Below, piece by piece: positions 16,081-57,609 of a stretch of DNA of 59,915 nt. The first letter of the stretch is position 1. Every line of letters starts with the position of its first letter. The DNA is taken from positions 1-59,915 of the IMG/VR virus record IMGVR_UViG_3300044712_001805, one strand, 5' to 3'. A program made the position numbers and the translations under genes. Source of the stretch: a virus. Under the pieces are notes generated by a model, which was not told the origin of the DNA, searched no databases, and was given only the letters and a program-made list of their open reading frames with translations.

Positions 16081-16379
16081 CCGACGAACCGAACCTCGTC
16101 CCCGACAAGCTTCCCTTTCCGCTCATGTACCGCGTGGAGGACGACGCGCGCCGCGCGATCCTCGTCCCCGGCTCGCACCGCGTGCCGCAGCGGCTCCGCC
16201 TCTGGTTCAACTTCCCCGCGGCGATGTTGCTCCACGCCGAGATCCAGAAGGCGTGCATCTTCATGCCGAAGGACGAGTCGGGCCTGTACTACATGGAGTG
16301 CGCGGCGCTCCGGATGCAGACCGGGCACGAGCCGAAGCTGATCTCGAGCCTGTCGGAAGTCCCGGGGGTGTCGTCGTGA
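16077..16379 (+). CDS. Hypothetical protein
   Basis: 100 residues, ATGA overlap with the upstream gene and AAAGGA before the ATG. Likely a small alpha/beta protein; no motif recognised. Confidence 0.5.
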   Translation: MTDEPNLVPDKLPFPLMYRVEDDARRAILVPGSHRVPQRLRLWFNFPAAMLLHAEIQKACIFMPKDESGLYYMECAALRMQTGHEPKLISSLSEVPGVSS

Positions 16380-20221: not shown

Positions 20222-20895
20222 AGTTCTACGGACGCGACGTGGCGGTGCGCGCGAGCGCCCACATCGAGAAGCTCGGCGTGGTGCTCGCCCTCATCAAGGA
20301 CAAGGCGTTCCTGCCAGATCAGGAGCGCGCGATCAAGGCCGCCGGCGCCGACATCCACCGGGTCTTCCACTCCTTCAGCCCGGCCGAGGTCGAGTGGGCC
20401 GTCGATGAGGCGCGCGCGGCCGGGCGCCAGGTCGCGGACTTCGTGGGCGTCCCGAAGCCGTTCCTCTCGGCTGAGGACGTGGCCGAGTGGGCGGCGAAGT
20501 GGAAGCTGACGTTCACGACCGAGGAGGAGGCGGCGCTCCTGGCGCGCGGGTTCGAGCCGCACGTGGCGGCGCTCCTCGGGACGCGGGATCTCCGGACGCA
20601 GCTCGAGATCGACCGCGACGAGGCGCGCGCGGCGGCCGGGAGCGGCACCTGCTCCTGCGGCGACCCGCGGGCCCTCGGGATCGTTCACCGGGCGCCCGAG
20701 TCCCCGTGCTTCCTCTACGCCGAGCCGGTCGAGGAGGGGAATGCCGAGGACGAGGACGTCGAACTCTCGCTCGAGGAGGCGCGCGAGCGCCTGAAGGCGA
20801 AGGGCTACCTCGACGGAGAGGAGCCGGCGAAACCGGCTCCGGAGCCGGAGAAGCCGGCCGAGAACCAGAGCACTACCGGCGAAAAGCCGGAGTAA
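20218..20895 (+). CDS. Hypothetical helical protein
   Basis: 225 residues, mostly helical, with a CSCGDP motif near 142 and an acidic/Pro-rich disordered C-terminus (about 170-225). No domain recognised. It may be a head-assembly accessory protein because it lies next to terminase. Confidence 0.5.
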   Translation: MKFYGRDVAVRASAHIEKLGVVLALIKDKAFLPDQERAIKAAGADIHRVFHSFSPAEVEWAVDEARAAGRQVADFVGVPKPFLSAEDVAEWAAKWKLTFTTEEEAALLARGFEPHVAALLGTRDLRTQLEIDRDEARAAAGSGTCSCGDPRALGIVHRAPESPCFLYAEPVEEGNAEDEDVELSLEEARERLKAKGYLDGEEPAKPAPEPEKPAENQSTTGEKPE

Positions 20896-20910
20896 CAGGA
20901 GGCTACGACC

Positions 20911-21651
20911 ATGGCCGAATCGTTTTCCACGGACTGCGGCTTCTACGTCGCGAGCTTGGGGGCGGTCTACCAGCTCGGCACCACGAACGGCGACATCGTC
21001 CCGCGCAACGGGAACGCCGCCTCCGATCTCCAGCGCGGGCTCGGGATGCTCTTCACGGGGACCGCGGCGGCGCCGGCGCCCCACCGCGCTCTCCACAATC
21101 AACTCCTCCCGCGCGGCCTCTATCTGGTGCAGACCGTGCCGGGAACGGCGCTGGCGAGCTTCACGACCCGCGCGAGTCTGAGCGGGACCTTCGTGAACTC
21201 GGCGACGGTCGGCGGCGCTCAGGTCGCGGGGACCATCTCTGCGGGCGCGCTGAACCTCCTCGGCCGGACGATCGCGATCAAGGCGTGGGGGACGCTGGGC
21301 GTCACCGGCACGCCGAACTACACCGTCGACGTGGCGCTCGGCACGAACATCCTGGCGACGACCGGCGTGCGCGCGATGGCGGCCGCCACCTCGCCGCTGG
21401 GGTGGTATCTCGACGTCGCCGCCACCGTCACCACGGCGGGCGCGTCCGGCGTCGTCGTCTCCGGTGGCACGTTCACCGCGGGGGAGAACTCGGCCGTCGT
21501 CAGCTTCCCTCTGACGAACAGCACGCCGGGGACCGGGCTCTCGATCGATCTCACGGCGGCCTACGCGTTCACGCTCAACGCCACGAGCTCGGCGTCGGAT
21601 CCCGCGAACACGCTCAAGTGCTACGGGACGATCGTCGAGATCATCTTCTAG
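20911..21651 (+). CDS. Beta-rich surface or structural protein
   Basis: 246 residues, ATG with CAGGAGG. Composition is Thr/Ala/Gly/Ser-rich with repeated hydrophobic strands, like a jelly-roll or Ig-type shell or fibre domain. No family recognised. Its neighbours are the collagen-like and Ig-like genes, so it probably belongs to the same surface structure. Confidence 0.5.
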   Translation: MAESFSTDCGFYVASLGAVYQLGTTNGDIVPRNGNAASDLQRGLGMLFTGTAAAPAPHRALHNQLLPRGLYLVQTVPGTALASFTTRASLSGTFVNSATVGGAQVAGTISAGALNLLGRTIAIKAWGTLGVTGTPNYTVDVALGTNILATTGVRAMAAATSPLGWYLDVAATVTTAGASGVVVSGGTFTAGENSAVVSFPLTNSTPGTGLSIDLTAAYAFTLNATSSASDPANTLKCYGTIVEIIF

Positions 21652-21674
21652 GCCAGGAAATCAAGGAGATGCGA

Positions 21675-23138
21675 GTGGGCAGCGCCATGAAGACCTACGC
21701 AAAGCGACTCATTGCCGCGGGTTTCTTCGCGGCGCTGCCCCTCGTCGGTCAGATCGTCGTCGTCCCCGGCGGTGGTGGATCCGGCTCCACAGGCCCCACT
21801 GGCGCCACGGGGGCCACCGGCTCAACTGGCGCGACGGGTGCCACCGGTGCGACCGGCCCCGTCGCTGGATCCTCCGGCCAGTACGTCTACAACAACGCCG
21901 GAGCGGCGGCCGGCGGCAACCTGCTCAACGGCACGAACCTCGTCGAGCAGCAGAACGGAACGAACGCGCAGACGTTCAACCTGTACGGGAGCTACACGAG
22001 TGCGACGAACTTCGTGCGCATGGCTCTCGACGCTTCCGACGCGCTCTCGTTTCAAATCGGCACGTCCTACGGCACCGCGGGCGGCACCGCGCGCCAGTTG
22101 ATCCTCGGCGGCGGCGAGATGGTCACGGATGCTGCGCCACCGATCCGCGGCATCTTCGGCAAATCGGCCTACTCGCAGGCAACCACGAACAACACCGGCG
22201 GAAACGTCATCATCGCGGGCGGGCTCGGGCGGCGGTTCTACACGTTCGTCACGCCGAACAGCACCGGCGGCAAGACGTTCACGCTGACCGCGAACGGGTC
22301 GGCCGTGGTCCTGACCGAGGGCACGTCATTCAACTGCAACACGCTGACCACGACGCAGTGCGCCACGAACATGGCGACGGCGATCAACGCGGACTCCACG
22401 CTCGGGCCGCTGATGACGGCGACGGGAGTTGGAGCCTCGTGCTACCTCGACAAGAAGAGCACGCTCTACACGCTGACCATCGCCACGAACGCGGGGGCGC
22501 CCGCGACGGCGACGAGCGGGACGGATGGAAGCACGAGTCACTACTCTTCCACAATGAACGGCAACACGACGTTCGCGGATGGCACGCAGGGTGGGAATAC
22601 GCCCACCACGCCACAATTGATCTTCGGCGGGCTGACCGGACGCGCCGGCTTCTCGTGGAGCAGCGGCGCCGATGGGATTGCGACGTGGCTCGTGCTGAAC
22701 ACGCTTCCGGCATACAAGTTCAAAACGCAAGAGTTCACGGTGCTCGCTGACGGGAACGCTGGAACATGGCTACGGGGCTCGCTCAGCACCCAACTCACGC
22801 TGAATACCGGAGCGACGACCACGAACACCGCAGCCAATCTCGCCCCAGCGAATTCGAAGCTCATCGCAATCATGGTACGTGTTACCACCACTATTACGAC
22901 CGCCGCTAACTTCGCAATCAGCGTGACTGGCGGCAATGCGTTCGCGATGATCGGCACCGGCACGACGAGCCTTACAACGCTGACGGCTAATACGACCTAT
23001 ACGCTTGTACCCGTGCTCCACACGGATCAGTACAACGCAACGGCGACCACGCTGACTGTCACCACAAATGCCAACCCAGGCGCGGGCGTTCTGCGGATCA
23101 CATCGATCTACGAGACGTTCTCGCCGCCGACAAGCTAG
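21675..23138 (+). CDS. Collagen-like surface protein with N-terminal signal-like sequence
   Basis: 487 residues from GTG 21675, which has AAGGAG at proper spacing; ATG 21669 touches that site and ATG 21687 is too far. The N-terminus (KTYAKRLIAAGFFAALPLVGQ) looks like a Sec signal peptide. Residues about 34-62 are nine or ten G-X-Y triplets (GPT, GAT, GST), a collagen-like stem. The remaining 420 residues are Thr/Asn/Gly-rich beta structure. Collagen stems trimerise phage fibres, but a signal peptide is unusual in a virion protein, so it could be an exported surface protein. The last 400 bp are less GC-rich than their surroundings. Confidence 0.65.
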   Translation: MGSAMKTYAKRLIAAGFFAALPLVGQIVVVPGGGGSGSTGPTGATGATGSTGATGATGATGPVAGSSGQYVYNNAGAAAGGNLLNGTNLVEQQNGTNAQTFNLYGSYTSATNFVRMALDASDALSFQIGTSYGTAGGTARQLILGGGEMVTDAAPPIRGIFGKSAYSQATTNNTGGNVIIAGGLGRRFYTFVTPNSTGGKTFTLTANGSAVVLTEGTSFNCNTLTTTQCATNMATAINADSTLGPLMTATGVGASCYLDKKSTLYTLTIATNAGAPATATSGTDGSTSHYSSTMNGNTTFADGTQGGNTPTTPQLIFGGLTGRAGFSWSSGADGIATWLVLNTLPAYKFKTQEFTVLADGNAGTWLRGSLSTQLTLNTGATTTNTAANLAPANSKLIAIMVRVTTTITTAANFAISVTGGNAFAMIGTGTTSLTTLTANTTYTLVPVLHTDQYNATATTLTVTTNANPGAGVLRITSIYETFSPPTS

Positions 23139-25235: not shown

Positions 25236-25448
25236 ATGCGAGGCGTCATTTTCGGGCGCGGCATCATCGATGGCCGCCGCCCCCGCCCGCGTCCGATCTC
25301 CACGCTCACCGTCCACCGTGCCTCTGAGTTCACGAAGCGCGGACGGCGCATCATCGCTTCGTGGCTCCGGAAGCAGGCCGATACGATCGAGCACGAGCCG
25401 GAGACGCTCGCGAAGCGGTACACGGCGCGTTACTTGGCGGTGCCGTGA
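25236..25448 (+). CDS. Small basic hypothetical protein
   Basis: 70 residues, rich in Arg, with a single amphipathic helix near the C-terminus. The start has no strong ribosome site. TGATG junction with the next gene. Confidence 0.4.
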   Translation: MRGVIFGRGIIDGRRPRPRPISTLTVHRASEFTKRGRRIIASWLRKQADTIEHEPETLAKRYTARYLAVP

Positions 25449-44939: not shown

Positions 44940-46025
44940 GTGCCAGTGAGATCGCGCTACGCGACCTACGCCGACGAGGCGCCGGACCTCTCGCGGTACG
45001 GCGCGCCCACCGACGACGAGCAGGACCAGCCTCCGGACGATGCGTGGATGCGCTCCGGGACGAACCCGAAGCGCTGGCAGCGTTACGGCGGCGGGGGCGG
45101 CTCGGCCCCGATGAGCCTCCCCGTCTCCAAGTCCGGCGGCTCGCCGGGCGACCAGGCGGACGCTCCCGATGAAGAGCCCGAGGGCGGCTGGGTCGGCGAC
45201 GACCAGAGCGACGTCTCGCGCGGGACGTCTCCCCCGCCCGGGACCGCCGCCCGGATGCGCCTCGCCCAGGCCGAGAAGGACCTCGACGATGAGACGGAGA
45301 AGGCAGGCGGGATGCTCGGGCTCGCGTTCCCGGGGCTCACCTCGCGCCGCGTCGCGATGAAGAACGCCAAGGTGGAGCGCCTCCGGAGCGAAGTCGCCTA
45401 CGAGGAGAACCGGAGGGGCGCCGAGGCCGCGGCGAAGAACGCCGCGCTGCTCGAGCGCGCGAAGATCCGGGCGGCCGGGCAGGAGAAGGACGCGGAGCTC
45501 CGGCGCAACGCGAAGCCGTTCTCTGCCGAGGGAAAGATGTGGATCGACCGCGGCCAGGGGTCGGAGCCATACCTGAAGCCGTCCACGCCGAAGGAGATCG
45601 CGGGGCCGCCCGTGCCGGGCGCCTCCATGCAGGCGACGATCCCCGGGGAGCAGTTCGCGGCGGAGCCGAAGGAGAAGGAGGGAAAGATCCACTCCGTCGC
45701 CGAGGGGTACGTCGATGAGAAGAACGTCTTCCACCGCACGGCCACAAAGCCCGAGAAGGAGGACCCGGTCGAGAAGCGTGCGGCCACCGCCGCGAACACC
45801 GCCTACAGCGCATGGCTTCGTGATCACATGGATGACCAAGCGGGCGCTGAGCAAGCCTATTCCAGCGCCTATACCGCCGCCCGCAAGGTCGGAATCAACG
45901 CTCGCGAAGGGATTGCCCCGGAGACGCCGCCGAAGCGAAAGAACTACCGAAACAACCAGACAGGACAGCTCGAGCCGTTCGTCTGGGACGACAAGGCGAG
46001 GAAGTACGTTCCGGAGCGCGGCTGA
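44940..46025 (+). CDS. Internal virion protein candidate
   Basis: 361 residues from GTG 44940 with GGAGGTG. A disordered first 100 residues, then a long charged helix (about 105-190), a Pro-rich linker and an alpha-helical end. The C-terminal 70 codons are less GC-rich than the rest. TGATG junction with the giant gene suggests co-assembly with it. Confidence 0.5.
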   Translation: MPVRSRYATYADEAPDLSRYGAPTDDEQDQPPDDAWMRSGTNPKRWQRYGGGGGSAPMSLPVSKSGGSPGDQADAPDEEPEGGWVGDDQSDVSRGTSPPPGTAARMRLAQAEKDLDDETEKAGGMLGLAFPGLTSRRVAMKNAKVERLRSEVAYEENRRGAEAAAKNAALLERAKIRAAGQEKDAELRRNAKPFSAEGKMWIDRGQGSEPYLKPSTPKEIAGPPVPGASMQATIPGEQFAAEPKEKEGKIHSVAEGYVDEKNVFHRTATKPEKEDPVEKRAATAANTAYSAWLRDHMDDQAGAEQAYSSAYTAARKVGINAREGIAPETPPKRKNYRNNQTGQLEPFVWDDKARKYVPERG

Positions 46026-49000
46026 TGGGAAAGCTCGCGCCGCCCGAGGGATACTCTGACCCGGACGACGAGAAAGAGAAGGAGCCGAAGAGTCTCGTCC
46101 CCGAGGGGTACTCGGAGGTCGAGGAGGACGAGGAGTCGACGCCGACCGCCACCAAGTCGCTCTTCTCCGGAAAGAAGGCGGGAGAGGCGCCGGAGGTGGG
46201 ATGGAAAGCGAACGTCCTCAAGACGTTTCTCTCACCCTCGACCTACGGCAAGCAAATCGCACACGATGTTCCTCTGGACGCGCGGGAGAGTCTTATCCCC
46301 AAGGGCTACTCTGATCCCGAGATGGAGGCGCCGGATTCGGCCGAGCGCACGCGCCTCTTCCAGAAGCGCCGACAGGGGCTCATCGCGAAGCGCCTCGATT
46401 CCATGCGGCGGTTCGGCCCGCAGGCGCCGATAGTCCCGCCGGAAGAGGCGTCGATCGCCGGTCCGCCCGTCCCGCCGCTCGTTGAGCGCTACAACCGGAC
46501 GTTGGCCGAAGCGCAGGCCGAGCAGCCGCAGGTGGAGGTGCCGCCGGTCCCGCCGACCCGCGACGAGATGCGCGAGAACGTCGTGCAGGCGAAGCTCGCG
46601 CAGGCGCAGCGCGCGGTCAGGAGCCTCGCCCAGCCGCCGACGCTCCCGGACCAGCCGGACCAGTCCCCGCTCGACGTGGCGGCGCTCGCTGGGCGGCTCG
46701 CGGCGACCCCGGCAGCACAGACCCCGGAGGTCCAGGCGGCCGCCGGGGCGGCGCACTCCGCCTACGGAGCGGTCGCCCCCGCGCTCGACACGCCCGTGCA
46801 CGAGCTCGTCGCGCAGGGAGTCTCCGGGGGACTCCGGACGCTGGGGCTCCCCGGTCTCGCCGACGTAGTTGGGGAGCTCCCCGGCGCCGCGAAGGAGGCC
46901 CTGGCCGAGCGGATGAAGGTCCTCCACGACGAGGGGGGCGCCCTCTCCGGGATCGCGACGGGGACCGAGGTGGCCGGGAAGACGCTCGAGGGGTTCTCGA
47001 CGCCGAGGGGTGTCGCCACGATGGGGGCGCTCGCAGTCCCCGGCGTCGGGGAAGCGATGACCGCCGAGATGCTCTTCGGCCTGGCGAAGGACCAGGTTCC
47101 GGAGATCGGGTACCAGTACGTCCTCAACCGCAAGGTCCCGGTGAAGGCGGCGGCCGAGGCGCTCGTCACGGCCCTGATGGCGGCCGAGATGATGCACTCG
47201 CGATCGAGGAACCGGGAGGCGACCCCGGAGCTCCGCGCCGCGGCGACGAAGGCCGTTGAGACGCTCCGGACCGAGGACGACGTCAAGGCCGCCGCCGCGC
47301 GCCAGGAGGCCCCAGGAGCCCCGACCGCGGCGGCCCCCGCCGAACCCCTCCCGGCGCCGATCGCGGCCGCGCAGGGTGGCGAAGCGGCGCCCGCGGGCCC
47401 TATACTTCCCCCCGATGCCGGATCCCCGCCCGCCCCAGAAGCCGCTCTACCCGGTCGGCAGCCCGGAGTGGAAGAAGGGGCAGGAGTTCGCCCGCAAGAA
47501 CCCGGGCTTCGTGGAGGAGCAGATCAGGCAGTACCGGCAGGAGCAGGAACAGCGCCGCCGGCAGTCGACCCCCGCACCCTCCCGGTAGACGAGGCCGGCG
47601 CCCCGATCACCGTTTACCGCGGCGAGGGCTCGCGCGCGGCCGACACCACGGGGCGGAAGCCGTCGCACCTCGCCGGCTCCCACTGGACCGAGGACGCCGA
47701 CTACGCGCGGATCCACGCCGGCGAGAACGGGCACCTCCGCGAGGCCACGCTCACCCTGAAGCGCCCCTTCGACATGGACGGCGTCGTGCCGGCGGAGGAG
47801 GCGCAGACCATCCTCGGGCCGCAGGCCGGCGAGATGCCGGGCGGTCTCGTCCACAAGGCGCTCCGCGACGAGTACCTGCAGGGGGCCGAGGACCCCACAG
47901 ACGACGACCTCCGGGCCGCCATCGCCATGTCGGCGGAGGTCCTCAAGGCGCACGGGTACGACAGCTACGCCTACACCGTGCGGACGCCCGAGGGGCGCGT
48001 GGCGCGCGCGTGGGCCGCGTTCGACGAGGCGGCGGTCAGCGAGCCCGGGCGCGCCGAGAAGGCCGCGGAGCCGCGCCCCGAGGGGGTCGAGCGGCGCGGC
48101 CCGAGGATGCCCACCGAGGATGTGCGCGCGGCCGTCCAGCGGAACCTCGACGAGCAGCGCGGGGCGACCGGGGGGCGGGAGGCGCGCGTCCGCGAGCTGG
48201 TCGAGATGGCGCAGAAGATCGAGCCGCGCGGGCTCTCCGAGCGCGCGGAGGTTCGGAGGAACGGACCGGTCACGAAGGAAGACATCGAGGCGGCCGCTCG
48301 CGCGATCGTCGAGGAGGAGCAGGGTGGACGTGAAACCGGCGCTCAGGGACCCGAACACGAGGCTGTTCCAGAAGGGGACCGCGGTGAAGGGGACGCCGCG
48401 CGCGTGGCTGGTGAAGAGGCTGCGGGACATGGCGAGGAGCGCGGTCCAGGTGGGCGGGTACCCGCCGCAGAGCCCGCTGCAGAAGGCGGGGAGCGCGCTG
48501 GTGGTGCCCCCGGTGGACGTCCAGGGGGAGGCGCCGAAGCCGCTGCCGAAGTAGGCGAGCTTCGTCCGGAACCGCACGAGATGGGCTCGGCTCCGGAGGC
48601 TGGCACGGCCGGGATGGACCGGTGGGAGGCGGACCGCGGGGCGATGCCCGGCGAGCCGGAGTTCACGCTCGATGGAGGGCGCGGAGACGGGAAGGCGGCG
48701 CTCATCGAAGTTGAAGAGGATGGACGCCCCGGCTACGCCGTGTGGGAGGCGCGCGGGGGCGGCGGAGAGGACCTCGGGCGGTTCTCGAACCTCGAGGACG
48801 CCGCGCGTCGCGCCGAGCAGTGGGCGGACAAGGAGCGCGAGAAGGCAACGGAGGTTCCACGTGAAACCCCGGAGCAGAAGCCGAGTCGGTGGCGCGCCCG
48901 CGTCGAGCAGAGGCGCCGCGCCGCCATCGCCACCAAGACGCGCCAGAACGTGCGCGACGAGGCGGTCAAGGCGAAGATGGGGACGCCCGCGCAGGTTGAC

Positions 49001-52000
49001 GCGTGGATGAAGACGGTAGACCGCACCGCGGCCTACTGGGCGAAGCACAACCCGGGGAAGCGCGCCGAGGACTTCTACGCCGAGAAGATGGCGGGGGTCA
49101 CGCGCGAGGCGCCGGAGACGGCGGCGGTGAATCAGCCGGTCTATCAGCACGGTATTGCAGCGCCGACGTTCTTCTCGCAGGCGATCCGCACGATCGAGCA
49201 GAAGATGCCCGAGCGTGCGGCACCCGAGCAGGTGCGCGGAATCCTCTCGCCAGCGAATGGCGTGAAGCCCGAGGAGCTTCAGTGGCTCGGACTCGACGAC
49301 GTGCTCTCCGGGAAGGCGAAGGTGACGAAGGCGGAAGTTCTGGAACACCTGCGCGCGAATCAGGTTGAGGTGAAGCCGGTAGTCCATGGCGGGAAGAACA
49401 ACGCGTCCCCTGAGCAGACCGAGGAAATCGACACGCTCCAAGGTCGGATGAATGACTTGGAAGTGCAGCTCGATGACGTCCGTCGTCGGCAGCAGATCGT
49501 GCGCCGTGAGCGCGAGCAGAACGCTGGGCGCCCGAGTAGTCGCGACTGGACGGAGGAGCTGGCCACGCTCGGCCAGGAGGCTGAAGACACAATCAGCGAG
49601 CAGCGCGACACGCTCGACACGCTTCAGCGTCGGCGCCGTTGGTTGGAAGGCGAGAACGACACGAAGTTCGGGAAATACACGCTGCCGGGAGGGGAAAACT
49701 ACAGAGAAGTCCTCCTGACCAAACCCGAGGGGCGCCCGACCGACAACGAACGCGTTCGGCTTGTGCAGGAGTTCCCCGGGGTCTGGAGATCTGCCGAGTA
49801 CAACCCGGACGGCGAATTCTCCGGCTACGTCACCGGGCCGATGTCAACGCGGATTGCTGCCGAGCGCGCGAGAGAGGCATACCTTCGCGAGTATCACGGG
49901 GGCGGTGCTCCCGAACCGTTCCGTTCCTCCCACTTCGACGAGCCGAACGTCCTCGCGCACCTTCGGCTGAATGACCGCGTGGATGCCGAGGGGAAGAAGA
50001 CGCTGTTCGTCGAGGAGATCCAGTCGGACTGGCATCAGAAGGGCCACGAAGAGGGCTACCAGAATCCGGGCCGTCTCGACGCTCTCGACGCGAAGCTGAA
50101 GCGCGACGGGAAGCTGTCGCCAGAGGAAGCGGCAGAATACAAAACGCTGACCGACCGCGAGGCGTTCCCCGCCTCAAAGGGCGGTGTCCCGAACGCTCCC
50201 TTCAAAAAGACGTGGCCGGAATTGGCTTTCAAGTGGGCGCTCCGGCACGCAGTCGAGAACGGATACGACAAGGTCGCGTGGACCACGGGCGAGCAGCAGG
50301 CGGAGCGGTACGACCTGAGTAAACAGTTGAATTCTGTCGTGTGGCATCCAGAGGGTCGAAAGAACGGGGGGAGGCTGCTCGCATTCGACAAGACGGCGAA
50401 CCAGGTAATAGATGCCGACCTGGCCACGGATGCAGAGCTAGTGGATCACGTCGGGAAGGATCTCGCGCAGAAGCTCATCGAAGGATCCGACAACCGCAAA
50501 CGCGGTGTGATGCTGGAAGGCCTCGACCTCAAGGTGGGTGGGGAAGGGATGAAAGGCTTCTACGACCAGATCCTCCCCGCCACAGTCAACAAGCTCGTGA
50601 AGAAGTGGGGCGGGAAGGTCGAGGAGACCGAGATCAGCGGCCCGAGCACTGAGGTGTGGACCGTTCGTGATCGCGCTGGCCGATCCGTCCCGTACCGCGA
50701 CGAGAACGGTGCGTCCGTCTACTTCCCCACCGAAGCGTCTGCTGTTGCAGCGGCCCGCGAGACGGACGGCACTCTTTCGAAGACACTCCGCGACGAGGCT
50801 GCTGTCCACTCCCTCGAGATCACCCCCGCCATGCGCGAGGGCGTCGAGGGCGGAATGCCGCTCTTCCAGGGCAAGGGCAAGCCGAAAGGCGCGCTCTCCT
50901 TCCTTGAAGACGGTCGCGCGCTCATCCACGCGATGGAGAAGCCGGACATCTCGACGCTGCTCCACGAGGGGACGCACCTTTTCGAATCGGTCCTCTCGCC
51001 GAAGGACCGCGCCACGGTCGAGAAGGTCTACGGCGAGAACGCGCTCTCGACGACGAAGGGCAAGGAGCGCTTCGCCGAGGACGGGGAGCGCTACTTCGCG
51101 AGCGGCAAGAGCCCCGTGCCCGAGATGAAGAGCGTCTTCGAGAAGTTCCGCGACTGGCTGACCGACATCTACAAGGGCGTAAAGGGCAGCCTACTCGGCA
51201 AGAAGATCCACCCGGAGATCGAGAAGGTCTTCAACAAGTGGATGCGCGGAGGAGAGGAGCCGAAGGTCGCGGGGGTGGGCGACACGGTCTCGTACCGCAG
51301 CAAGCTGTGGCGCGTGGAGCGCCAGGAGGGCGACTACCTCCTCCATCTTCGTCGCGTTACGTCGGGCGGCAAGCTCGGACCGGAGCGCGCGAAGCTCGAC
51401 ATCCGCACGGCGGCCCCGAGCGACGTCGCCCCGATGGCGGTCGAGCCCCGCGCCGAGGGGTTCAAGACGAGCCAGTCGGCGCGACTCGCGGCAACGCTCC
51501 CGCCGGAGGTCCGCGGCATCGAAATCCCGGACCCGATGCTCCACGCGATGAACGGACTCGAGACGGAGGCGGAAGCGCGCGCGGTCCGCGACCAGCTCGT
51601 GGAGAGGCGGCGCGCGTTCGACCCCGCGACGTTTGACTCGCCGAAGGAGGCCGCGCGCTACGAGAAGCTCCTGAAGGCGATGCTGCACGTCGCCGACCGG
51701 CGCGCGACGGAGCTGCGCCTCGGCCTGGCCCCCGAGGGGTCGCTGGCGTCGAGGATCCTCGCCGTCTACTCGGACCGGCGGGCGGAGAAGGGGGGCCGCG
51801 GTGGTAGCATTCCGGCGGATGAAGAGGGCGTTGAAGGCACCGGAGCCCGCGCCGAAGAATTGGCGTTCCCTGATGAGCGTCTTCCCGGCGAGGCTGCGGA
51901 ACGTGGGGAACATCCCGACGAGCGGCCAGTACAAGAAGCTGGGGTACAGCTTCCACCCGCAGCCGGTCGTGAGCCGCGAGGAGATCAGCGGGGCGCCGCT

Positions 52001-55000
52001 GCCGAATCCTCCGAAGCCCGCGTTCCCGGCCGTCCCGAAAGGGCAGTTCCCGCTCAAGGTCATGTAGCGGAGTTCCGCGCCGAGCCGTCGGCGAGCGCCG
52101 TCCCGAAGGAAAGCCCCCGCGTTCTCGATCGGAAGCCGAGGACCCCGCGCTCCTCGATGCCGACCGACGAGCCTGTCATCCTCGCGCGCCCCTTCGCCGG
52201 GAAGGAGAAGCGGATCGGCCAAGTCGTCATGAGGGCGACGCTCGCGGAGAAGGCGCGCCGGCACGACGTCGAGGCGAAGGCGATGGAGGAGTGGGACCGC
52301 TACTTCGACAAGCCGGGGCGGACCGTCCCTGAGGGGCGGGTCGAGGAGATCGCGCAGGCGTGGGAGGGCAAAGGGAAGAAGGCGGAGGCGAAGGCGCTCC
52401 GAGACCACGTCGAGCAGGTCGACTTCATCGACCGAATCGAGAGCGGCCGCCCGCAGCGCACGTTTCGAGCGCAGCAAGTCGCGGACTACCTGAAGGCGGC
52501 GTGGGACGCCCGGAAGGACGAGATCGCGGCGCTCGGCATGGAGGCCGCGAAGACCTGGCACCTCGACTACTTCCCCCACATCTGGGAGGACCCGAAGAGG
52601 ATGAAGGACGCGGTCCTCGGGATGCTCGGACGCCGCCCGCTCGAGGGGAGCAAGGGTTTCGCGAAGCACCGGACGTTCTTGACGACGATGGACGGTCTCG
52701 AGGCGGGCTTCGTCCCCGTCGACTGGAACCCGGTTCGGCTCTCGATGCTGAAGATGCACGAGATGGATCGGTACATCACGGCGAGGAAAATGCTCGGAGA
52801 CCTCGACCGGCTCGGGATGAAGAAGTTCGTCGGCATCGGGGCGCAGGCTCCCGAGGGGTGGCGCGTCCCGAAGGACAACGCCTTCCAGGTGTTCAAGTCC
52901 CCCGAGATCGCGGTGAAGGAAGCGCGCGACGCCGCGCTGATGGAGTCTCTGAAGAACTTCGCGGAGTCTCTCGGGGTGAAGCTCGAGACCCGCAACTCCC
53001 TCCGGTCGGGGCGGTGGGGCGAGGCGCACGGGGACCAGGAGGTCCGGCGCCGGTTCGGCGGCCCGGAGTTCGTCGTCACGCACGAGATCGGGCACGTCCT
53101 CGACAAGCGGTTCCATCTCTACGACAAGCTGAAGGCGGCCGATCCCGGCATCGAGGGGGAGCTCTCGAAGCTGGCCGAGGCGCGGATCGGCGAGGAGACC
53201 CCCGAGCAGGACGCGCTCGAACGCCGGAAGTTCCAGGAGTACGTCCAGCGCCCGGACGAGCTCGTCGCGAACCTCGTCCACGCGTTCATCCACGCCCCGG
53301 AGCTGGTGAAGGAGACCGCCCCGAAGGCGGCGGCCGAGATCCGCCGGCTCGCAGAGGAGGACCCGGCGCTCAAGCCGCTCCTCTCGATCAAGCCGTCCCT
53401 GCGCCTCCAGGAGTCGACCAGCACGGTCAATGCCGGGGGCATCGTGAAGACGGGCGGGTACGCCGTCCCCGGGCCCGTGGCGGACCTCCTGGACCGGCAC
53501 CTGACCCCGTCGCTCCTCTCCGGCTCGAAGACCTTCGACGCCTACCGCAAGACGTCGCAGGCGCTCCTCATGGCGCGGCTCGGGTGGTCTGGCTTCCACC
53601 TCGGGTTCACGACCGGGGACGTCACCCTCTCGCGCCTGGCGCTCGCCGGGCGGCAGGCGTCCCGCGGGGACCTCGCGGGAGCGGTGAAGGCAGTCGGCTC
53701 CATCCCGCAGGTCTTCTCGGGCTGGGTGAAGGACAACCCCTACCTGAAGGAGTGGTACGCCCCGGGAACGCAGGGGGATGACGTCGGGGCGATCGTGAAG
53801 GCGCTCGAAATGGGAGGCGGCCGCGCGCGCCAGGGCGGCGTCCATGACATGGGCGGGTGGGAGGGCTTCTTCCGGGAACTCCGGAAGGCCGGGATCGGGA
53901 ACGAGAGCGGGAAGCTGGCGCGGACCGGGGACATGCTCGCGCACCCGGGGACGCTCGCAGCGACCGCCGCGCGCCACCCGTGGAAAGCCACGCAGGCGCT
54001 CGTCGAGGCCGGCAGCCGGTACATCCTCAACGACATCGTCCCGCGCCAGAAGCTCGCCATCGCGGCGCAGATGGCCGAGCCCGAGCTCCGGGCGTTCCAG
54101 AAGGAGACGGGGAAGGCGACCCTCCGCGAAGCGCTCGACGCCGCGAACCCCGAGCGGGTGAAGGACGTCATGGCTCGGGTCTGGGACTCGGTCGACAACC
54201 GGCTCGGCCAGGTCGTCTACGACAACCTCTTCCTCAACCGCACGCTCCGGGACGCGCTGCACGCGAGCGTCCAGTCGGTCGGGTGGAATCTCGGGACGCT
54301 CCGCGAGCTCGGCGGCGGGGTGAAGGACGTCGGGAATCTCTTCAAGCCCGAGACCGACGTCACCGGGCGGGCGCTCCCGCGGGTGACGCATCGCCTTGCC
54401 TACACCGTGGCGCTCCCGTTCTTCCACGCGCTCCTCTCAAGCGCGATCCAGTATGCCTACACGGGGAAGGGACCGGAAGAGCCGAAGGACCTCGTCTTCC
54501 CAAAGACGGGCAGGCTCAACGCGGACGGCTCGGCGGCGCGGCTCTCGCCGGCCACGTACATGAAGGACGTCTACGCCTACCTCGGGGGGTTCCTCGGCGA
54601 GGGCGGCGGGATCGACCGCGGCATCGACCAGATCGCGACGACCGTCAGCCACAAGGTGAATCCGATGCTCTCGATGCTGGCCGAGATCGGGAAGAATGAG
54701 GACTTCTACGGCACGGAGATCCGCCACAAGGGGGCGCCCGTGGCCGAGCAACTCGCCGACCTCGCGAGGTACGTCATCGCCGGGGTCCACCCGTACTCCC
54801 TCACCGGCTACCAGAAGGAGCGCAAGTCGGGGGCGAGCTTCGGCGAGGCGGCGCCCGCGTTCTTCGGGCTGACCCCGGCCCCGGCGTCGATCACCCGCTC
54901 GCCGCTTCGCCAGGCGCTCGTCGAGTACCAGCGCGAGCACATGCCCCGCGCGGCGCGCACAAAGGAGCAGGCGGCGGTCTCCGCTGTTCGGCGCGACATC

Positions 55001-55321
55001 CGGGACGCCGAGCGCCGGCACGACTCGGAGGCACTCCAGGAAGCCGAGGCGCGGGCGCGGGAGGGCGGGCTCCTCTCGTCCCGCCAGATCGCCAAGGTGG
55101 GGCGCGCGGCGACGGCGGGAACCGGGATCGAACAGCCGTTCAAGTCGCTGCCGTTCGCGGAGGCCGTGCGGATCTACAAGCTGGGAGACGCGCAGGAGCG
55201 TGCCGCGCTTCGGAAGGCGCTTCGGCACAAGATCAGCTCCCGCTCGGGGCTCGAGCACGTCGCGTTCCGCGACCGCGCGGCGCTCCTGGCCGAAGCGCGA
55301 AAGCTCGTGGAGGCGAAATGA
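46025..55321 (+). CDS. 3098-residue polyvalent virion protein: ART-like, two HExxH zincin motifs and LPD-type domains
   Basis: By eye the domains are: a disordered start with three P(E/K)GYS(D/E) motifs; an ADP-ribosyltransferase-like domain at 520-675 (VYRGEG, GSHWTED); a long conserved phage domain at 995-1612 (FVEEIQSDWHQKG, WTTGEQQAERYDLS, GGEGMKGFYDQ); a first zincin HEGTH at 1647-1651; an SH3-like stretch near 1755; a helical LPD region near 2050-2290; a second zincin HEIGH at 2353-2357; and a large helical C-terminus ending in an LPD38-like region (KSLPFAEAVRIYKLGDAQER). Such polyvalent proteins are packaged and injected, where they modify or defend against host factors. Three nested ORFs lie in its linkers. 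Confidence 0.8.
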   Translation: MGKLAPPEGYSDPDDEKEKEPKSLVPEGYSEVEEDEESTPTATKSLFSGKKAGEAPEVGWKANVLKTFLSPSTYGKQIAHDVPLDARESLIPKGYSDPEMEAPDSAERTRLFQKRRQGLIAKRLDSMRRFGPQAPIVPPEEASIAGPPVPPLVERYNRTLAEAQAEQPQVEVPPVPPTRDEMRENVVQAKLAQAQRAVRSLAQPPTLPDQPDQSPLDVAALAGRLAATPAAQTPEVQAAAGAAHSAYGAVAPALDTPVHELVAQGVSGGLRTLGLPGLADVVGELPGAAKEALAERMKVLHDEGGALSGIATGTEVAGKTLEGFSTPRGVATMGALAVPGVGEAMTAEMLFGLAKDQVPEIGYQYVLNRKVPVKAAAEALVTALMAAEMMHSRSRNREATPELRAAATKAVETLRTEDDVKAAAARQEAPGAPTAAAPAEPLPAPIAAAQGGEAAPAGPILPPDAGSPPAPEAALPGRQPGVEEGAGVRPQEPGLRGGADQAVPAGAGTAPPAVDPRTLPVDEAGAPITVYRGEGSRAADTTGRKPSHLAGSHWTEDADYARIHAGENGHLREATLTLKRPFDMDGVVPAEEAQTILGPQAGEMPGGLVHKALRDEYLQGAEDPTDDDLRAAIAMSAEVLKAHGYDSYAYTVRTPEGRVARAWAAFDEAAVSEPGRAEKAAEPRPEGVERRGPRMPTEDVRAAVQRNLDEQRGATGGREARVRELVEMAQKIEPRGLSERAEVRRNGPVTKEDIEAAARAIVEEEQGGRETGAQGPEHEAVPEGDRGEGDAARVAGEEAAGHGEERGPGGRVPAAEPAAEGGERAGGAPGGRPGGGAEAAAEVGELRPEPHEMGSAPEAGTAGMDRWEADRGAMPGEPEFTLDGGRGDGKAALIEVEEDGRPGYAVWEARGGGGEDLGRFSNLEDAARRAEQWADKEREKATEVPRETPEQKPSRWRARVEQRRRAAIATKTRQNVRDEAVKAKMGTPAQVDAWMKTVDRTAAYWAKHNPGKRAEDFYAEKMAGVTREAPETAAVNQPVYQHGIAAPTFFSQAIRTIEQKMPERAAPEQVRGILSPANGVKPEELQWLGLDDVLSGKAKVTKAEVLEHLRANQVEVKPVVHGGKNNASPEQTEEIDTLQGRMNDLEVQLDDVRRRQQIVRREREQNAGRPSSRDWTEELATLGQEAEDTISEQRDTLDTLQRRRRWLEGENDTKFGKYTLPGGENYREVLLTKPEGRPTDNERVRLVQEFPGVWRSAEYNPDGEFSGYVTGPMSTRIAAERAREAYLREYHGGGAPEPFRSSHFDEPNVLAHLRLNDRVDAEGKKTLFVEEIQSDWHQKGHEEGYQNPGRLDALDAKLKRDGKLSPEEAAEYKTLTDREAFPASKGGVPNAPFKKTWPELAFKWALRHAVENGYDKVAWTTGEQQAERYDLSKQLNSVVWHPEGRKNGGRLLAFDKTANQVIDADLATDAELVDHVGKDLAQKLIEGSDNRKRGVMLEGLDLKVGGEGMKGFYDQILPATVNKLVKKWGGKVEETEISGPSTEVWTVRDRAGRSVPYRDENGASVYFPTEASAVAAARETDGTLSKTLRDEAAVHSLEITPAMREGVEGGMPLFQGKGKPKGALSFLEDGRALIHAMEKPDISTLLHEGTHLFESVLSPKDRATVEKVYGENALSTTKGKERFAEDGERYFASGKSPVPEMKSVFEKFRDWLTDIYKGVKGSLLGKKIHPEIEKVFNKWMRGGEEPKVAGVGDTVSYRSKLWRVERQEGDYLLHLRRVTSGGKLGPERAKLDIRTAAPSDVAPMAVEPRAEGFKTSQSARLAATLPPEVRGIEIPDPMLHAMNGLETEAEARAVRDQLVERRRAFDPATFDSPKEAARYEKLLKAMLHVADRRATELRLGLAPEGSLASRILAVYSDRRAEKGGRGGSIPADEEGVEGTGARAEELAFPDERLPGEAAERGEHPDERPVQEAGVQLPPAAGREPRGDQRGAAAESSEARVPGRPERAVPAQGHVAEFRAEPSASAVPKESPRVLDRKPRTPRSSMPTDEPVILARPFAGKEKRIGQVVMRATLAEKARRHDVEAKAMEEWDRYFDKPGRTVPEGRVEEIAQAWEGKGKKAEAKALRDHVEQVDFIDRIESGRPQRTFRAQQVADYLKAAWDARKDEIAALGMEAAKTWHLDYFPHIWEDPKRMKDAVLGMLGRRPLEGSKGFAKHRTFLTTMDGLEAGFVPVDWNPVRLSMLKMHEMDRYITARKMLGDLDRLGMKKFVGIGAQAPEGWRVPKDNAFQVFKSPEIAVKEARDAALMESLKNFAESLGVKLETRNSLRSGRWGEAHGDQEVRRRFGGPEFVVTHEIGHVLDKRFHLYDKLKAADPGIEGELSKLAEARIGEETPEQDALERRKFQEYVQRPDELVANLVHAFIHAPELVKETAPKAAAEIRRLAEEDPALKPLLSIKPSLRLQESTSTVNAGGIVKTGGYAVPGPVADLLDRHLTPSLLSGSKTFDAYRKTSQALLMARLGWSGFHLGFTTGDVTLSRLALAGRQASRGDLAGAVKAVGSIPQVFSGWVKDNPYLKEWYAPGTQGDDVGAIVKALEMGGGRARQGGVHDMGGWEGFFRELRKAGIGNESGKLARTGDMLAHPGTLAATAARHPWKATQALVEAGSRYILNDIVPRQKLAIAAQMAEPELRAFQKETGKATLREALDAANPERVKDVMARVWDSVDNRLGQVVYDNLFLNRTLRDALHASVQSVGWNLGTLRELGGGVKDVGNLFKPETDVTGRALPRVTHRLAYTVALPFFHALLSSAIQYAYTGKGPEEPKDLVFPKTGRLNADGSAARLSPATYMKDVYAYLGGFLGEGGGIDRGIDQIATTVSHKVNPMLSMLAEIGKNEDFYGTEIRHKGAPVAEQLADLARYVIAGVHPYSLTGYQKERKSGASFGEAAPAFFGLTPAPASITRSPLRQALVEYQREHMPRAARTKEQAAVSAVRRDIRDAERRHDSEALQEAEARAREGGLLSSRQIAKVGRAATAGTGIEQPFKSLPFAEAVRIYKLGDAQERAALRKALRHKISSRSGLEHVAFRDRAALLAEARKLVEAK
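47415..47588 (+). CDS. Nested ORF 1 in the giant gene, +1 frame, basic Pro-rich protein
   Basis: 57 residues. By hand count 54 of 57 codons end in G or C, while the giant frame has only about 49% G/C in its third positions over the same bases, so the coding pattern follows this frame. The giant protein is low-complexity here (residues 463-521), just before its ART-like domain. No Shine-Dalgarno; TATACT (47401-47406) lies 8 nt before the ATG, which would suit a leaderless transcript. Product is Arg/Gln-rich (EEQIRQYRQEQEQRRRQ). Function unknown. Confidence 0.55.
   Translation: MPDPRPPQKPLYPVGSPEWKKGQEFARKNPGFVEEQIRQYRQEQEQRRRQSTPAPSR
48324..48554 (+). CDS. Nested ORF 2 in the giant gene, +1 frame, basic protein
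   Basis: 76 residues from GTG 48324 (or GTG 48330) with a very strong GAGGAGGAG at 48311-48319. Of 76 codons, 75 end in G or C by hand count, against about 50% in the giant frame. The giant protein here (residues 767-843) is Glu/Gly/Ala low complexity, between the ART-like and conserved domains. The product has TPRAWLVKRLRDMARSA, then VGGYPPQSPLQKAGSA, and ends PKPLPK, similar to nested ORF 3. Confidence 0.65.
   Translation: MDVKPALRDPNTRLFQKGTAVKGTPRAWLVKRLRDMARSAVQVGGYPPQSPLQKAGSALVVPPVDVQGEAPKPLPK
51801..52067 (+). CDS. Nested ORF 3 in the giant gene, +1 frame, paralog of nested ORF 2
   Basis: 82 residues from ATG 51819, or 88 from GTG 51801 (AAGGGGGG upstream). Only about 6 of 82 codons from 51819 end in A or T, against roughly half in the giant frame. 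The product has APKNWRSLMSVF, then VGNIPTSGQYKKLGYSF and GAPLPNPPKP, aligning with nested ORF 2. TAGCAT (51805-51810) lies 8 nt before ATG 51819. The giant protein is low complexity at this place (residues about 1926-2014), between zincin 1 and the later domains. Confidence 0.65.
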   Translation: MVAFRRMKRALKAPEPAPKNWRSLMSVFPARLRNVGNIPTSGQYKKLGYSFHPQPVVSREEISGAPLPNPPKPAFPAVPKGQFPLKVM

Positions 55322-57609
55322 CGCTCCTCACCGGAACGGTCAAGGACACGGGCGGCAACCTCGTCACGGGGTCCCTCTTCCTCCGTCTCAGCCAGGACGC
55401 GAACCTCCTGCCCGGGGGCGGGGGGCCCGCGGTGGTCCCCGCCGATCCGCCGTCGATCTTCAACCTTGTAGCCGGCGTGATCGTGGGGCCGGGAGCCGGT
55501 CCCTACTCGGTTTACGGCGCCGACGTCCTCTCCCCCTCTGGGCTCACCTACCGGATGAGCGCCACCTCCGCCGGCGGCGATCTCCTCTTCGAGCGCGAGG
55601 TGTCGATCGCCGGCTCAAGCGTCGACCTCGGGCTCCTGAACCCCGTGTCCTCCCCGAGCGGGCTCGTCTACGCCGGCCCCTTCCTCCGCACGGATGGAAC
55701 GACGCCGCTGACGGCCGACTGGAACGCCGGGCTCTACAACATCCAGTCGAAGAACAGCGTGGCCGTTTTCAACGTGAAGGCGTACGGCGCGCTCGGGAAC
55801 GACTCCCACGACGAGACGGCCGCGTTTCAGGCGGCCATCGCCGCGGCGCTCGCGGCCGGTGGCGGGACGGTCTACGTCCCCGACGGTACGTACTGGTTCC
55901 CCGCGGCGTCCTCCCTCCTCGACCCCGGGGCCGGGAATCTGAGGTTCCTCGGCCAGTCGCGCGAGACGACCGTCCTCCACTTCGACGAGGGGACGAGCGG
56001 CTTGAGGAAGCACCTCTTCCGCAACGACGCGAACACCGCCAAGGGCGGGCTCTCGTTCGAGAACCTCACCTTCAAGGGGACGTGGACGGGCGCCTCCTCC
56101 GGCGGCGGCGCGCCCATCTTCTGCGACTACTACACACCGACCGTCATCGCCGACTGCGCGTTCACGGCTCTCAGGGACGTCTGCATGGACGTCCACTTCG
56201 CGAACGAGGTCGTGTGCGTGAGGAACCGGGTCCTCGGCGTGGCGTCGGACGCGCTCCGGTTCCGGGACTCGAGGAACGTCTTCGTCTCCCAGAACTTCAT
56301 CTACCGGAACGGCGACGACGCCATCGCCATCCACACCGCCGACTCATCGATCGGGACCTTCGCCCCCATCCGCGAGCGCGTCATCGTCAGCGACAACGTG
56401 ATTCTGAACGGCGGCTCCATCACCGTGCTCGGCGCCCGGTCGGTCAGCATCACGGGCAACATCACCAAGTTCCAGAACCTCACGGGGATCCTCGTCGCGG
56501 TCGGGAGCATCGAGGGGCACGTCCCCTTCTTCGACGTCTCGATCACCGACAACATCCTCCAGGACCTCATCGGCGTGACGAGCGGCGTGGCGTCGGCGGG
56601 GAACACCTACATCACCGTCATCCCGCCCGCGCCGCAGGGGGCGACGTCGACGCACGGGACCATCCCGGGCCGGTACGACGCGACGGCCGGGGCGATGGTC
56701 CTCCCGTGGAACTACTACGGCCTGAACACGTCTCTCGCGGCGAGTCCGGTCGGGCCCGCGCACGGCATCACGATCGCGCGGAACACCTGCGGTGGGCGCC
56801 GCGTCCCGAACGCCACCAACTTCAGCGACTACGGCTTCGGGTCGGTCGTGCGCCAGGGGGCGCAGTACAACCCGGCCATGGCCGACGCGAACCTGCTCCC
56901 GGGCGCGGCCATGCAGATCGGGGTCGGCACCGTCGGCGCCCGGATCACCCAGAACCGGATCGAGCACGTCGGGACCGGGATCATCCAGTCGGACGTCACC
57001 GACCCCCTCTTCGCGGACGGGCTCCTGATCGAGGGGAATGTCTTCCGCGACATCCTCTACCGCGGGGCGTGGATCGCCAACAGCCTCGCGACGAAGGTGA
57101 ACGCCGTCATCCGGAACAACGACTTCGACATGGACCCGTACCGGCTCGGCGGGAGCAGCAACCTCAACGGAACCTACTCCGCCGACCTCCCGCGGGCGAT
57201 CGACATCGAGAACGCCACGGGCGTGATCGTCAGCGGGAACACGTTCCGCAACTGCGGCAACCCGCTCGCGCTGAACTCCGCCTACGGATCCGTCGTCGTC
57301 TTCGGCAACGTCGTCTTCTGCCACCCCGCGGCGCTGGGCTTCTCGGCGTCGAACAAGGGGGTTGGGACCATCTTCGCGGACGTCGCCGGCTTCCGGTACG
57401 TGGACATCGACGCCGACCCGACGTCGGGCACCTACGGCTCGCTGCACTCGGTGCTGGTGACGACGTCGGCGGCCATGCCGGCGGCGGGCTGGTACCCGGT
57501 CGGCTGGTTCGTCTACGCCTCGACGCCGGTCGCGGGGCTCTTCGGGTGGGCCCGGCTGACGACCGGGAGCAACCACGTCCTCAACACGGACTGGATGGTC
57601 GTGGCTTAG
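55318..57609 (+). CDS. Tailspike with pectate-lyase-3 beta-helix
   Basis: 763 residues. About 1-140 is an N-terminal beta domain that probably attaches to the virion. VFNVKAYGALGNDSHDETAAFQAAI (near 150) opens a pectate-lyase-3 beta-helix that runs to about 640 with repeated strand turns (VSDNVILNGGS, ITGNITKF, ISGNTFRN-like). The last 100 residues look like a small trimerisation or folding domain. It likely binds and degrades a host surface polysaccharide. ATGA overlap with the giant gene. No catalytic residues can be assigned by eye. Confidence 0.85.
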   Translation: MTLLTGTVKDTGGNLVTGSLFLRLSQDANLLPGGGGPAVVPADPPSIFNLVAGVIVGPGAGPYSVYGADVLSPSGLTYRMSATSAGGDLLFEREVSIAGSSVDLGLLNPVSSPSGLVYAGPFLRTDGTTPLTADWNAGLYNIQSKNSVAVFNVKAYGALGNDSHDETAAFQAAIAAALAAGGGTVYVPDGTYWFPAASSLLDPGAGNLRFLGQSRETTVLHFDEGTSGLRKHLFRNDANTAKGGLSFENLTFKGTWTGASSGGGAPIFCDYYTPTVIADCAFTALRDVCMDVHFANEVVCVRNRVLGVASDALRFRDSRNVFVSQNFIYRNGDDAIAIHTADSSIGTFAPIRERVIVSDNVILNGGSITVLGARSVSITGNITKFQNLTGILVAVGSIEGHVPFFDVSITDNILQDLIGVTSGVASAGNTYITVIPPAPQGATSTHGTIPGRYDATAGAMVLPWNYYGLNTSLAASPVGPAHGITIARNTCGGRRVPNATNFSDYGFGSVVRQGAQYNPAMADANLLPGAAMQIGVGTVGARITQNRIEHVGTGIIQSDVTDPLFADGLLIEGNVFRDILYRGAWIANSLATKVNAVIRNNDFDMDPYRLGGSSNLNGTYSADLPRAIDIENATGVIVSGNTFRNCGNPLALNSAYGSVVVFGNVVFCHPAALGFSASNKGVGTIFADVAGFRYVDIDADPTSGTYGSLHSVLVTTSAAMPAAGWYPVGWFVYASTPVAGLFGWARLTTGSNHVLNTDWMVVA

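Follow-up and report, generated by a model that had tools for sequence, protein, structure and literature searches.

IMG/VR virus record IMGVR_UViG_3300044712_001805 (59,915 bases, GC 69%; "the window") contains a giant gene resembling those of polyvalent proteins, and three short open reading frames (ORFs), N1, N2 and N3, lie within it in its +1 frame. These ORFs are very probably real small protein-coding genes nested in a polyvalent-protein gene, and one case of a recurrent architecture. A reading of the sequence alone (the sequence-only reading) had proposed the three ORFs, and their positions and common frame relative to the giant were confirmed. The features are as follows.

46025 to 55321, plus strand: giant polyvalent-protein-like gene (the outer frame), one open frame of 3098 codons
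47415 to 47588, plus strand: N1, ATG to TAG, 57 amino acids, +1 frame of the giant; possible earlier start GTG 47376
48309 to 48323, plus strand: Shine-Dalgarno-like stretch with GAGGAGGAG before N2, sequence GTCGAGGAGGAGCAGG-GTG
48324 to 48554, plus strand: N2, GTG to TAG, 76 amino acids, +1 frame of the giant
51784 to 51796, plus strand: purine-rich GGAGAAGGGGGG stretch, candidate site for start GTG 51801, from reading of the sequence only
51819 to 52067, plus strand: N3, ATG to TAG, 82 amino acids, +1 frame of the giant; possible earlier start GTG 51801

Each ORF lies wholly inside another gene, in another frame and with its own start and stop codons, as in nested same-strand overlapping genes, and each has the codon usage of real genes in the nested frame.

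Codon usage in the nested frames

The GC content at third codon positions (GC3) of N1, N2 and N3 was found to be 0.95, 0.99 and 0.93, respectively, whereas that of the giant frame inside them was about 0.48-0.50, compared to 0.87 for the giant overall. These values agree with the earlier estimates of about 95, 99 and 93%, and of a drop to about 50% in the giant frame. Giant codon positions 1, 2 and 3 inside the ORFs have GC contents of 0.93-0.99, 0.58-0.71 and 0.48-0.50, and the nested reading shows the codon-position pattern that is normal for this phage. The giant GC3 is back up within 45 nucleotides past each nested stop.

Segments were scanned with a codon model trained on the phage's other genes. 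The best "+1 versus giant" segments of the whole giant were 47376-47564, 48324-48578 and 51810-52064, with scores of 71, 94 and 99.5 for N1, N2 and N3; the next best segment in the +1 frame scored 19. In this codon-likelihood check, which had been suggested with the sequence-only reading, the three top segments are the three ORFs, and their edges agree with the start and TAG codons within some 13 codons. The N2 boundary is sharp at the GTG and lies near the TAG at the 3′ end. The start of N1 is uncertain, as GTG 47376 is in frame and the codon signal begins there. Synonymous codon scores per codon in the nested frames of N1, N2 and N3 (-0.65, -0.75 and -0.84) match those of real phage genes (-0.70 ± 0.19); the giant frame inside the ORFs scores -2.0 to -2.2, which is the off-frame level. 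Synonymous shuffles of giants, the window giant among them, never produced such segments. The open giant frame across N1-N3 is itself uninformative, because the GC content of the window is high (chance P of 0.72, 0.35 and 0.49).

The codon pattern might instead result from relaxed selection on linkers of low complexity, requiring no nested gene. The three stretches are linkers, and the giant-frame protein across them is rich in Gly, Ala, Glu, Arg and Pro. However, relaxation does not yield 93-99% GC at giant position 1 together with 48% at position 3, the shuffles gave zero segments, and the nested family F1, described below, is a conserved protein family with a selection estimate (w) of about 0.3. 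This explanation is therefore very improbable for the window, and for the class of giants it was refuted by the shuffles and the conservation of F1.

A candidate ribosome-binding site precedes the nested start of N2 and of most F1 members; for N3, the purine-rich stretch could serve the possible alternative start. The strong site that had been claimed for one ORF corresponds to GAGGAGGAG before GTG 48324, which may be partly coincidental, since it encodes Glu-Glu-Glu in the giant frame.

Nested segments in other polyvalent-protein giants

Because N1-N3 have no detectable homologues, the class of giants was surveyed, using 80 loci retrieved with a conserved domain of polyvalent proteins that has no relation to the nested ORFs. 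The same scan revealed further +1 nested segments in the fetched loci, for example four in locus L071 and long ORFs in L060 and L062. The scan of 42 distinct giants whose GC3 was 0.6 or more (423 kb) yielded 42 segments in the +1 frame and none in +2, and 20 rounds of synonymous shuffling of the surveyed giants produced none. In the subset retrieved independently of nested genes, 8 of 36 distinct giants carried a +1 segment (8 of 19 at GC3 > 0.65). The coding pattern was thus demonstrated both for the window and for the class.

An all-against-all comparison of the ORFs inside giants recorded, for diverged pairs, how often the match in an alternative frame exceeded that in the giant frame with a margin above 12 bits. 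This was so for 575 of 959 pairs in the +1 frame, compared to 0 of 192 in +2, 3 of 2624 in m1 and 51 of 2008 in minus frame 0 (m0). Some cross-locus nested matches (e.g., L068, 2024-2272) were discarded as shadows of conserved giant domains. The m0 result bears on the possibility that the signal stems from antisense, minus-strand genes in register with the giant codons, a frame that in N1-N3 has the same GC3 signal and an equally good synonymous codon score. Besides the small share of m0 pairs ahead of the giant frame, the m0 difference in GC between first and second codon positions is -0.21, -0.21 and -0.10 in N1, N2 and N3, values that are reached by 0%, 0% and 1.2% of real gene windows, and m0 has no start or stop at the boundaries. 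Antisense genes are consequently a most unlikely source of the signal.

The nested family F1

F1 was discovered when a peptide nested in the L047 giant proved homologous to one nested in the giant of L018. The family, of about 129 amino acids, was found among annotated phages in Klebsiella phage vB_KpnP_ZX1, Pseudomonas phage Skulduggery, Serratia phage Parlo and two Vibrio phages, as well as in a Comamonas plasmid. The matches in these records always fall under the annotation of the giant gene, in its +1 frame, and F1 has no annotation of its own in the isolate records examined. An alignment of all eight divergent members was too diverse as a search query; closer subsets worked. In total, 35 loci were collected, including two contigs of bacterial genome bins, with F1 GC contents ranging from 39 to 66%. 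F1 lies in the +1 frame of a giant ORF in 35 of 35 loci and free-standing copies were never found, although, as most loci were found through F1 itself, this count describes the location of F1 and not the frequency of nesting. The host genes are annotated as DarB-like, PLxRFG or LPD38, and, where inspected, the F1 reading ends shortly before the helicase motif NGTGTGKT of the giant.

The F1 start codon is conserved: the ATG is kept in 34 of the 35 loci as matched, and in L047 it lies one codon on. An AGGA/GAGG-like, Shine-Dalgarno-like site precedes the ATG in most members, and in several loci an in-frame stop is located 2-4 codons before it. Selection was estimated by a four-class substitution count, using disjoint pairs and all pairs. 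Within the overlap, the nested w ranged from 0.30 for disjoint pairs to 0.39 when all pairs were used, and that of the giant frame was 1.2 to 1.4. When the same pairs were compared in adjacent parts of the giant, w was 0.15-0.41 for the giant frame and 0.78-0.95 for the +1 frame. Nested identity exceeds giant-frame identity in almost all F1 pairs, the opposite of the pattern that had been named as refuting the sequence-only reading, in which the linker protein is kept and the nested ORF is not. With the nested protein and the codon usage as given, chance would place 2.9 to 13 stops in the giant frame across F1, and none is present; the joint chance of a stop-free giant frame in 16 members is about 1e-40 if these are independent, which they are only in part. 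The nested constraint, together with this openness against expectation, indicates that both frames are preserved, the nested frame for its protein and the giant frame as a passage without stops. Selection on the nested frame, the openness of the giant frame and the conservation of the start are shown for the class, not for the window.

These features also bear on two further explanations. Pairs of compensating frameshifts, or sequencing errors, might make the nested frame the true reading of the linker, shifted out and back. N1-N3 are partly Pro-rich and could be linker themselves, and the codon bias is intact in the nested frame, both as this explanation would predict. It requires, however, three flanking pairs of insertions or deletions in the window, each starting near a start codon and ending near a stop codon. 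For F1 it was refuted by the 5′ stops, or the end of another nested gene (F5, see below) directly before F1, and by the frame relation, which is constant in all loci with both frames open. Overall, frameshift pairs are a highly improbable cause. Alternatively, programmed +1 frameshifting might yield a truncated giant with a nested-frame tail and no free small protein, which would fit the observation that all nested frames are +1. The retained F1 ATG with its 5′ Shine-Dalgarno-like sequence, and the closure of the nested frame a few codons 5′ of F1 in several loci, argue against this mechanism, which we regard as very doubtful.

F1 is predicted to be a compact helical protein (predicted local distance difference test score, pLDDT, of 77; predicted template modelling score, pTM, of 0.69), and many members are acidic. 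No Pfam, PHROG or PDB family matched F1, and its model had no match among solved or viral predicted structures. In L127 and L130, the giant ORF begins 238 codons 5′ of F1, or ends 271 codons past it; these apparent splits near the nested gene are possibly pre-fusion states or contig errors.

N1-N3 show no match to F1, as neither the M[YFHQL]QV...W[NH] start nor the conserved helical sequence is present, and they are nested genes other than F1. Several results weigh against their interpretation as genes of a recurrent class, in addition to the way in which the F1 loci were collected. The N1 ATG at 47415 has no Shine-Dalgarno sequence. N1-N3 are basic proteins, with pI > 10, and Pro-rich in part, which sets them apart from most F1 members; the two sets may have different roles. 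The search for homologues of the three peptides proposed with the sequence-only reading found none in IMG/VR (exact-peptide scan), INPHARED or the fetched relatives; constraint was accordingly estimated in F1. Control genes of 400-1500 amino acids gave 7 +1 and 5 +2 segments in 260 kb, and a few single +1 segments could be miscalled genes. Lastly, the codon scan is blind in low-bias genomes, and many of the remaining giants are too weakly biased to inform. The proposal that linkers hold small genes across which the giant frame stays open is supported in the window by codon usage and boundaries only, and in the class by comparative evidence.

Other nested families and arrangements

Additional nested families were identified. 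A second is common to L022 and Pseudomonas phage 8P, where it precedes a methylase-like region; a third is shared by L060 and L062, whose giants bear a GDGTGVGKG motif in the region 3′ of it; and a fourth by L068 and L088. The Burkholderia phages BcepIL02 and DC1 have two +1 nested ORFs (54 and about 107 amino acids), conserved between both. In their relative JC1, the giant was shown by mass spectrometry to be virion-borne (PMC9144972). No confident family was found for the nested peptides in Pfam, PHROG and PDB searches.

Nested genes also occur in tandem. F5, of 51-53 amino acids, precedes F1 in 12 loci, and in L106 F5 (7845-8000) ends at the base before the ATG of F1 (8001-8387), forming a nested two-gene operon. 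An HNH endonuclease ORF (PF13392, E = 3.6e-8) was found antisense inside the giant ORF of L109 (about 7373-7867, minus strand), just 5′ of F1 and with the giant frame open through it; L114 also has one.

The window virus and its giant gene

The giant belongs to the late gene block, immediately 5′ of a gene (55318-57609) that matches tail-spike PHROGs. A PHROG search with the giant matched PHROG 9880/7348, and tblastn found relatives among phage giant proteins for residues 1220-1614 (33%, E = 2e-38) and matches in other phage giants for residues 1617-1749. As to the enzymatic domains typical of polyvalent proteins, such as the MPTase, Pfam gave no match, and a HEGTH motif is visible in the sequence of the giant. 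With its 3098 amino acids, tail-spike-like neighbour and giant-like segments, the gene resembles polyvalent-protein genes in encoding a very large multidomain protein among virion genes. The location of N1-N3 in linkers between domains, as previously suggested, is consistent with these data, although the Pfam search of the window giant matched zero domains.

The capsid-like protein of the window had no match in INPHARED and none in bacterial genomes; two relatives were found in IMG/VR, and a profile built from the three proteins detected no further IMG/VR members. IMG/VR searches with the giant, the terminase, a structural-region protein and the three nested peptides gave no usable close relative of the giant. 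The virus is a member of a poorly sampled group. One of the two relatives, contig G002, encodes a giant of 2974 amino acids in the same genomic neighbourhood. Sequence similarity between the two giants is not detectable, and the G002 giant carries +1-frame ORFs of 68 and 84 amino acids with the same codon-phase switch. This contig (L005-L008) has a divided late-gene block, one portion of which lies at the far end and in the reverse orientation, reflecting either a genome permutation or an assembly join.

Other +1 codon-bias signals in the window, at 16257-16370, 25365-25442 and 20487-23138, lie in ORFs picked by a simple caller, and are probably wrong ORF choices or starts, not nested genes.

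Proposed expression, origin and function

We infer the expression, order of origin and function of the nested genes from sequence features. Translation would begin inside the late mRNA, at the start codon of each nested gene, most members having their own Shine-Dalgarno sequence, and would thereby produce free small proteins; the conserved start codons, 5′ sites and 5′ stop codons point to such initiation. Ribosomes in the giant frame would translate these stretches into a disordered linker between domains, which is near-neutral and needs only to remain open.

Judging from its normal codon usage and its stronger constraint, the nested frame is probably the older of the two, with the linker overprinted on the nested gene. 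The arrangement might have arisen by fusion of the genes flanking a small gene, which fits the position at domain junctions, or by entry of a small gene into a linker; the antisense HNH ORFs inside the L109 and L114 giants suggest that insertion into linkers also happens. Stop avoidance alone does not explain the exclusive use of +1, as expected stops for F1 are alike in both alternative frames. One possibility is that the +1 giant reading may give a more tolerable, hydrophilic linker.

As F1 was never found away from the giant, the most economical guess is that the nested products are small late proteins made beside the giant, which would help in its folding or packaging or act with it in anti-defence. 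On a broader view, which we consider somewhat more probable than its opposite, giant linkers are a general niche for hidden genes: the resident small gene, sometimes a two-gene operon, would be under selection and the linker would be its overprinted by-product, with whole conserved families, plausibly anti-defence or co-packaged, missing from annotation.

The genes of polyvalent giants count among the largest in phages, and at least some phages deliver the giant together with their genome. Should conserved genes be a routine content of the linkers, their products are missing from current phage annotation and from proteomic databases, also for the cultured phages Skulduggery (of P. fluorescens SBW25), Parlo and BcepIL02. 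The giants would also offer a tractable system for studying how giant fusion proteins grow and why the +1 relation alone occurs.

Comparison with known systems

The host genes belong to the same class as the polyvalent proteins described by Iyer et al. in 2017 (PMC5512222), i.e., the DarB-like, PLxRFG and LPD38 giants; the text of that study names no overlapping or out-of-frame genes. Text searches of the open-licence literature gave no description of nested genes in polyvalent giants; the recurrent architecture thus appears new, its novelty being unproven. The antisense overlapping genes of E. coli O157:H7 (pop, laoB, ano and asa) were likewise overlooked by annotation. Those genes are antisense and were reported singly, whereas the nested genes of the giants are on the same strand and F1 is conserved across phages of several genera.

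In phiX174, gene E within D (PMC8227390), and in the embedded arrangement of Rz1 within Rz (PMC9144972), a short gene is likewise contained wholly inside another, in a different frame and with its own start and stop. The giants differ from these cases in that several unrelated small genes recur in them, at domain junctions and always in the +1 frame, and in that the outer frame is near-neutral in the overlap. With the inner gene constrained and the outer frame near-neutral, the arrangement looks like overprinting turned inside out. According to a review, the +1 frame is as a rule the one that arose recently and de novo (PMC8227390); in the giants the nested +1 frame looks older, the opposite of this usual view.

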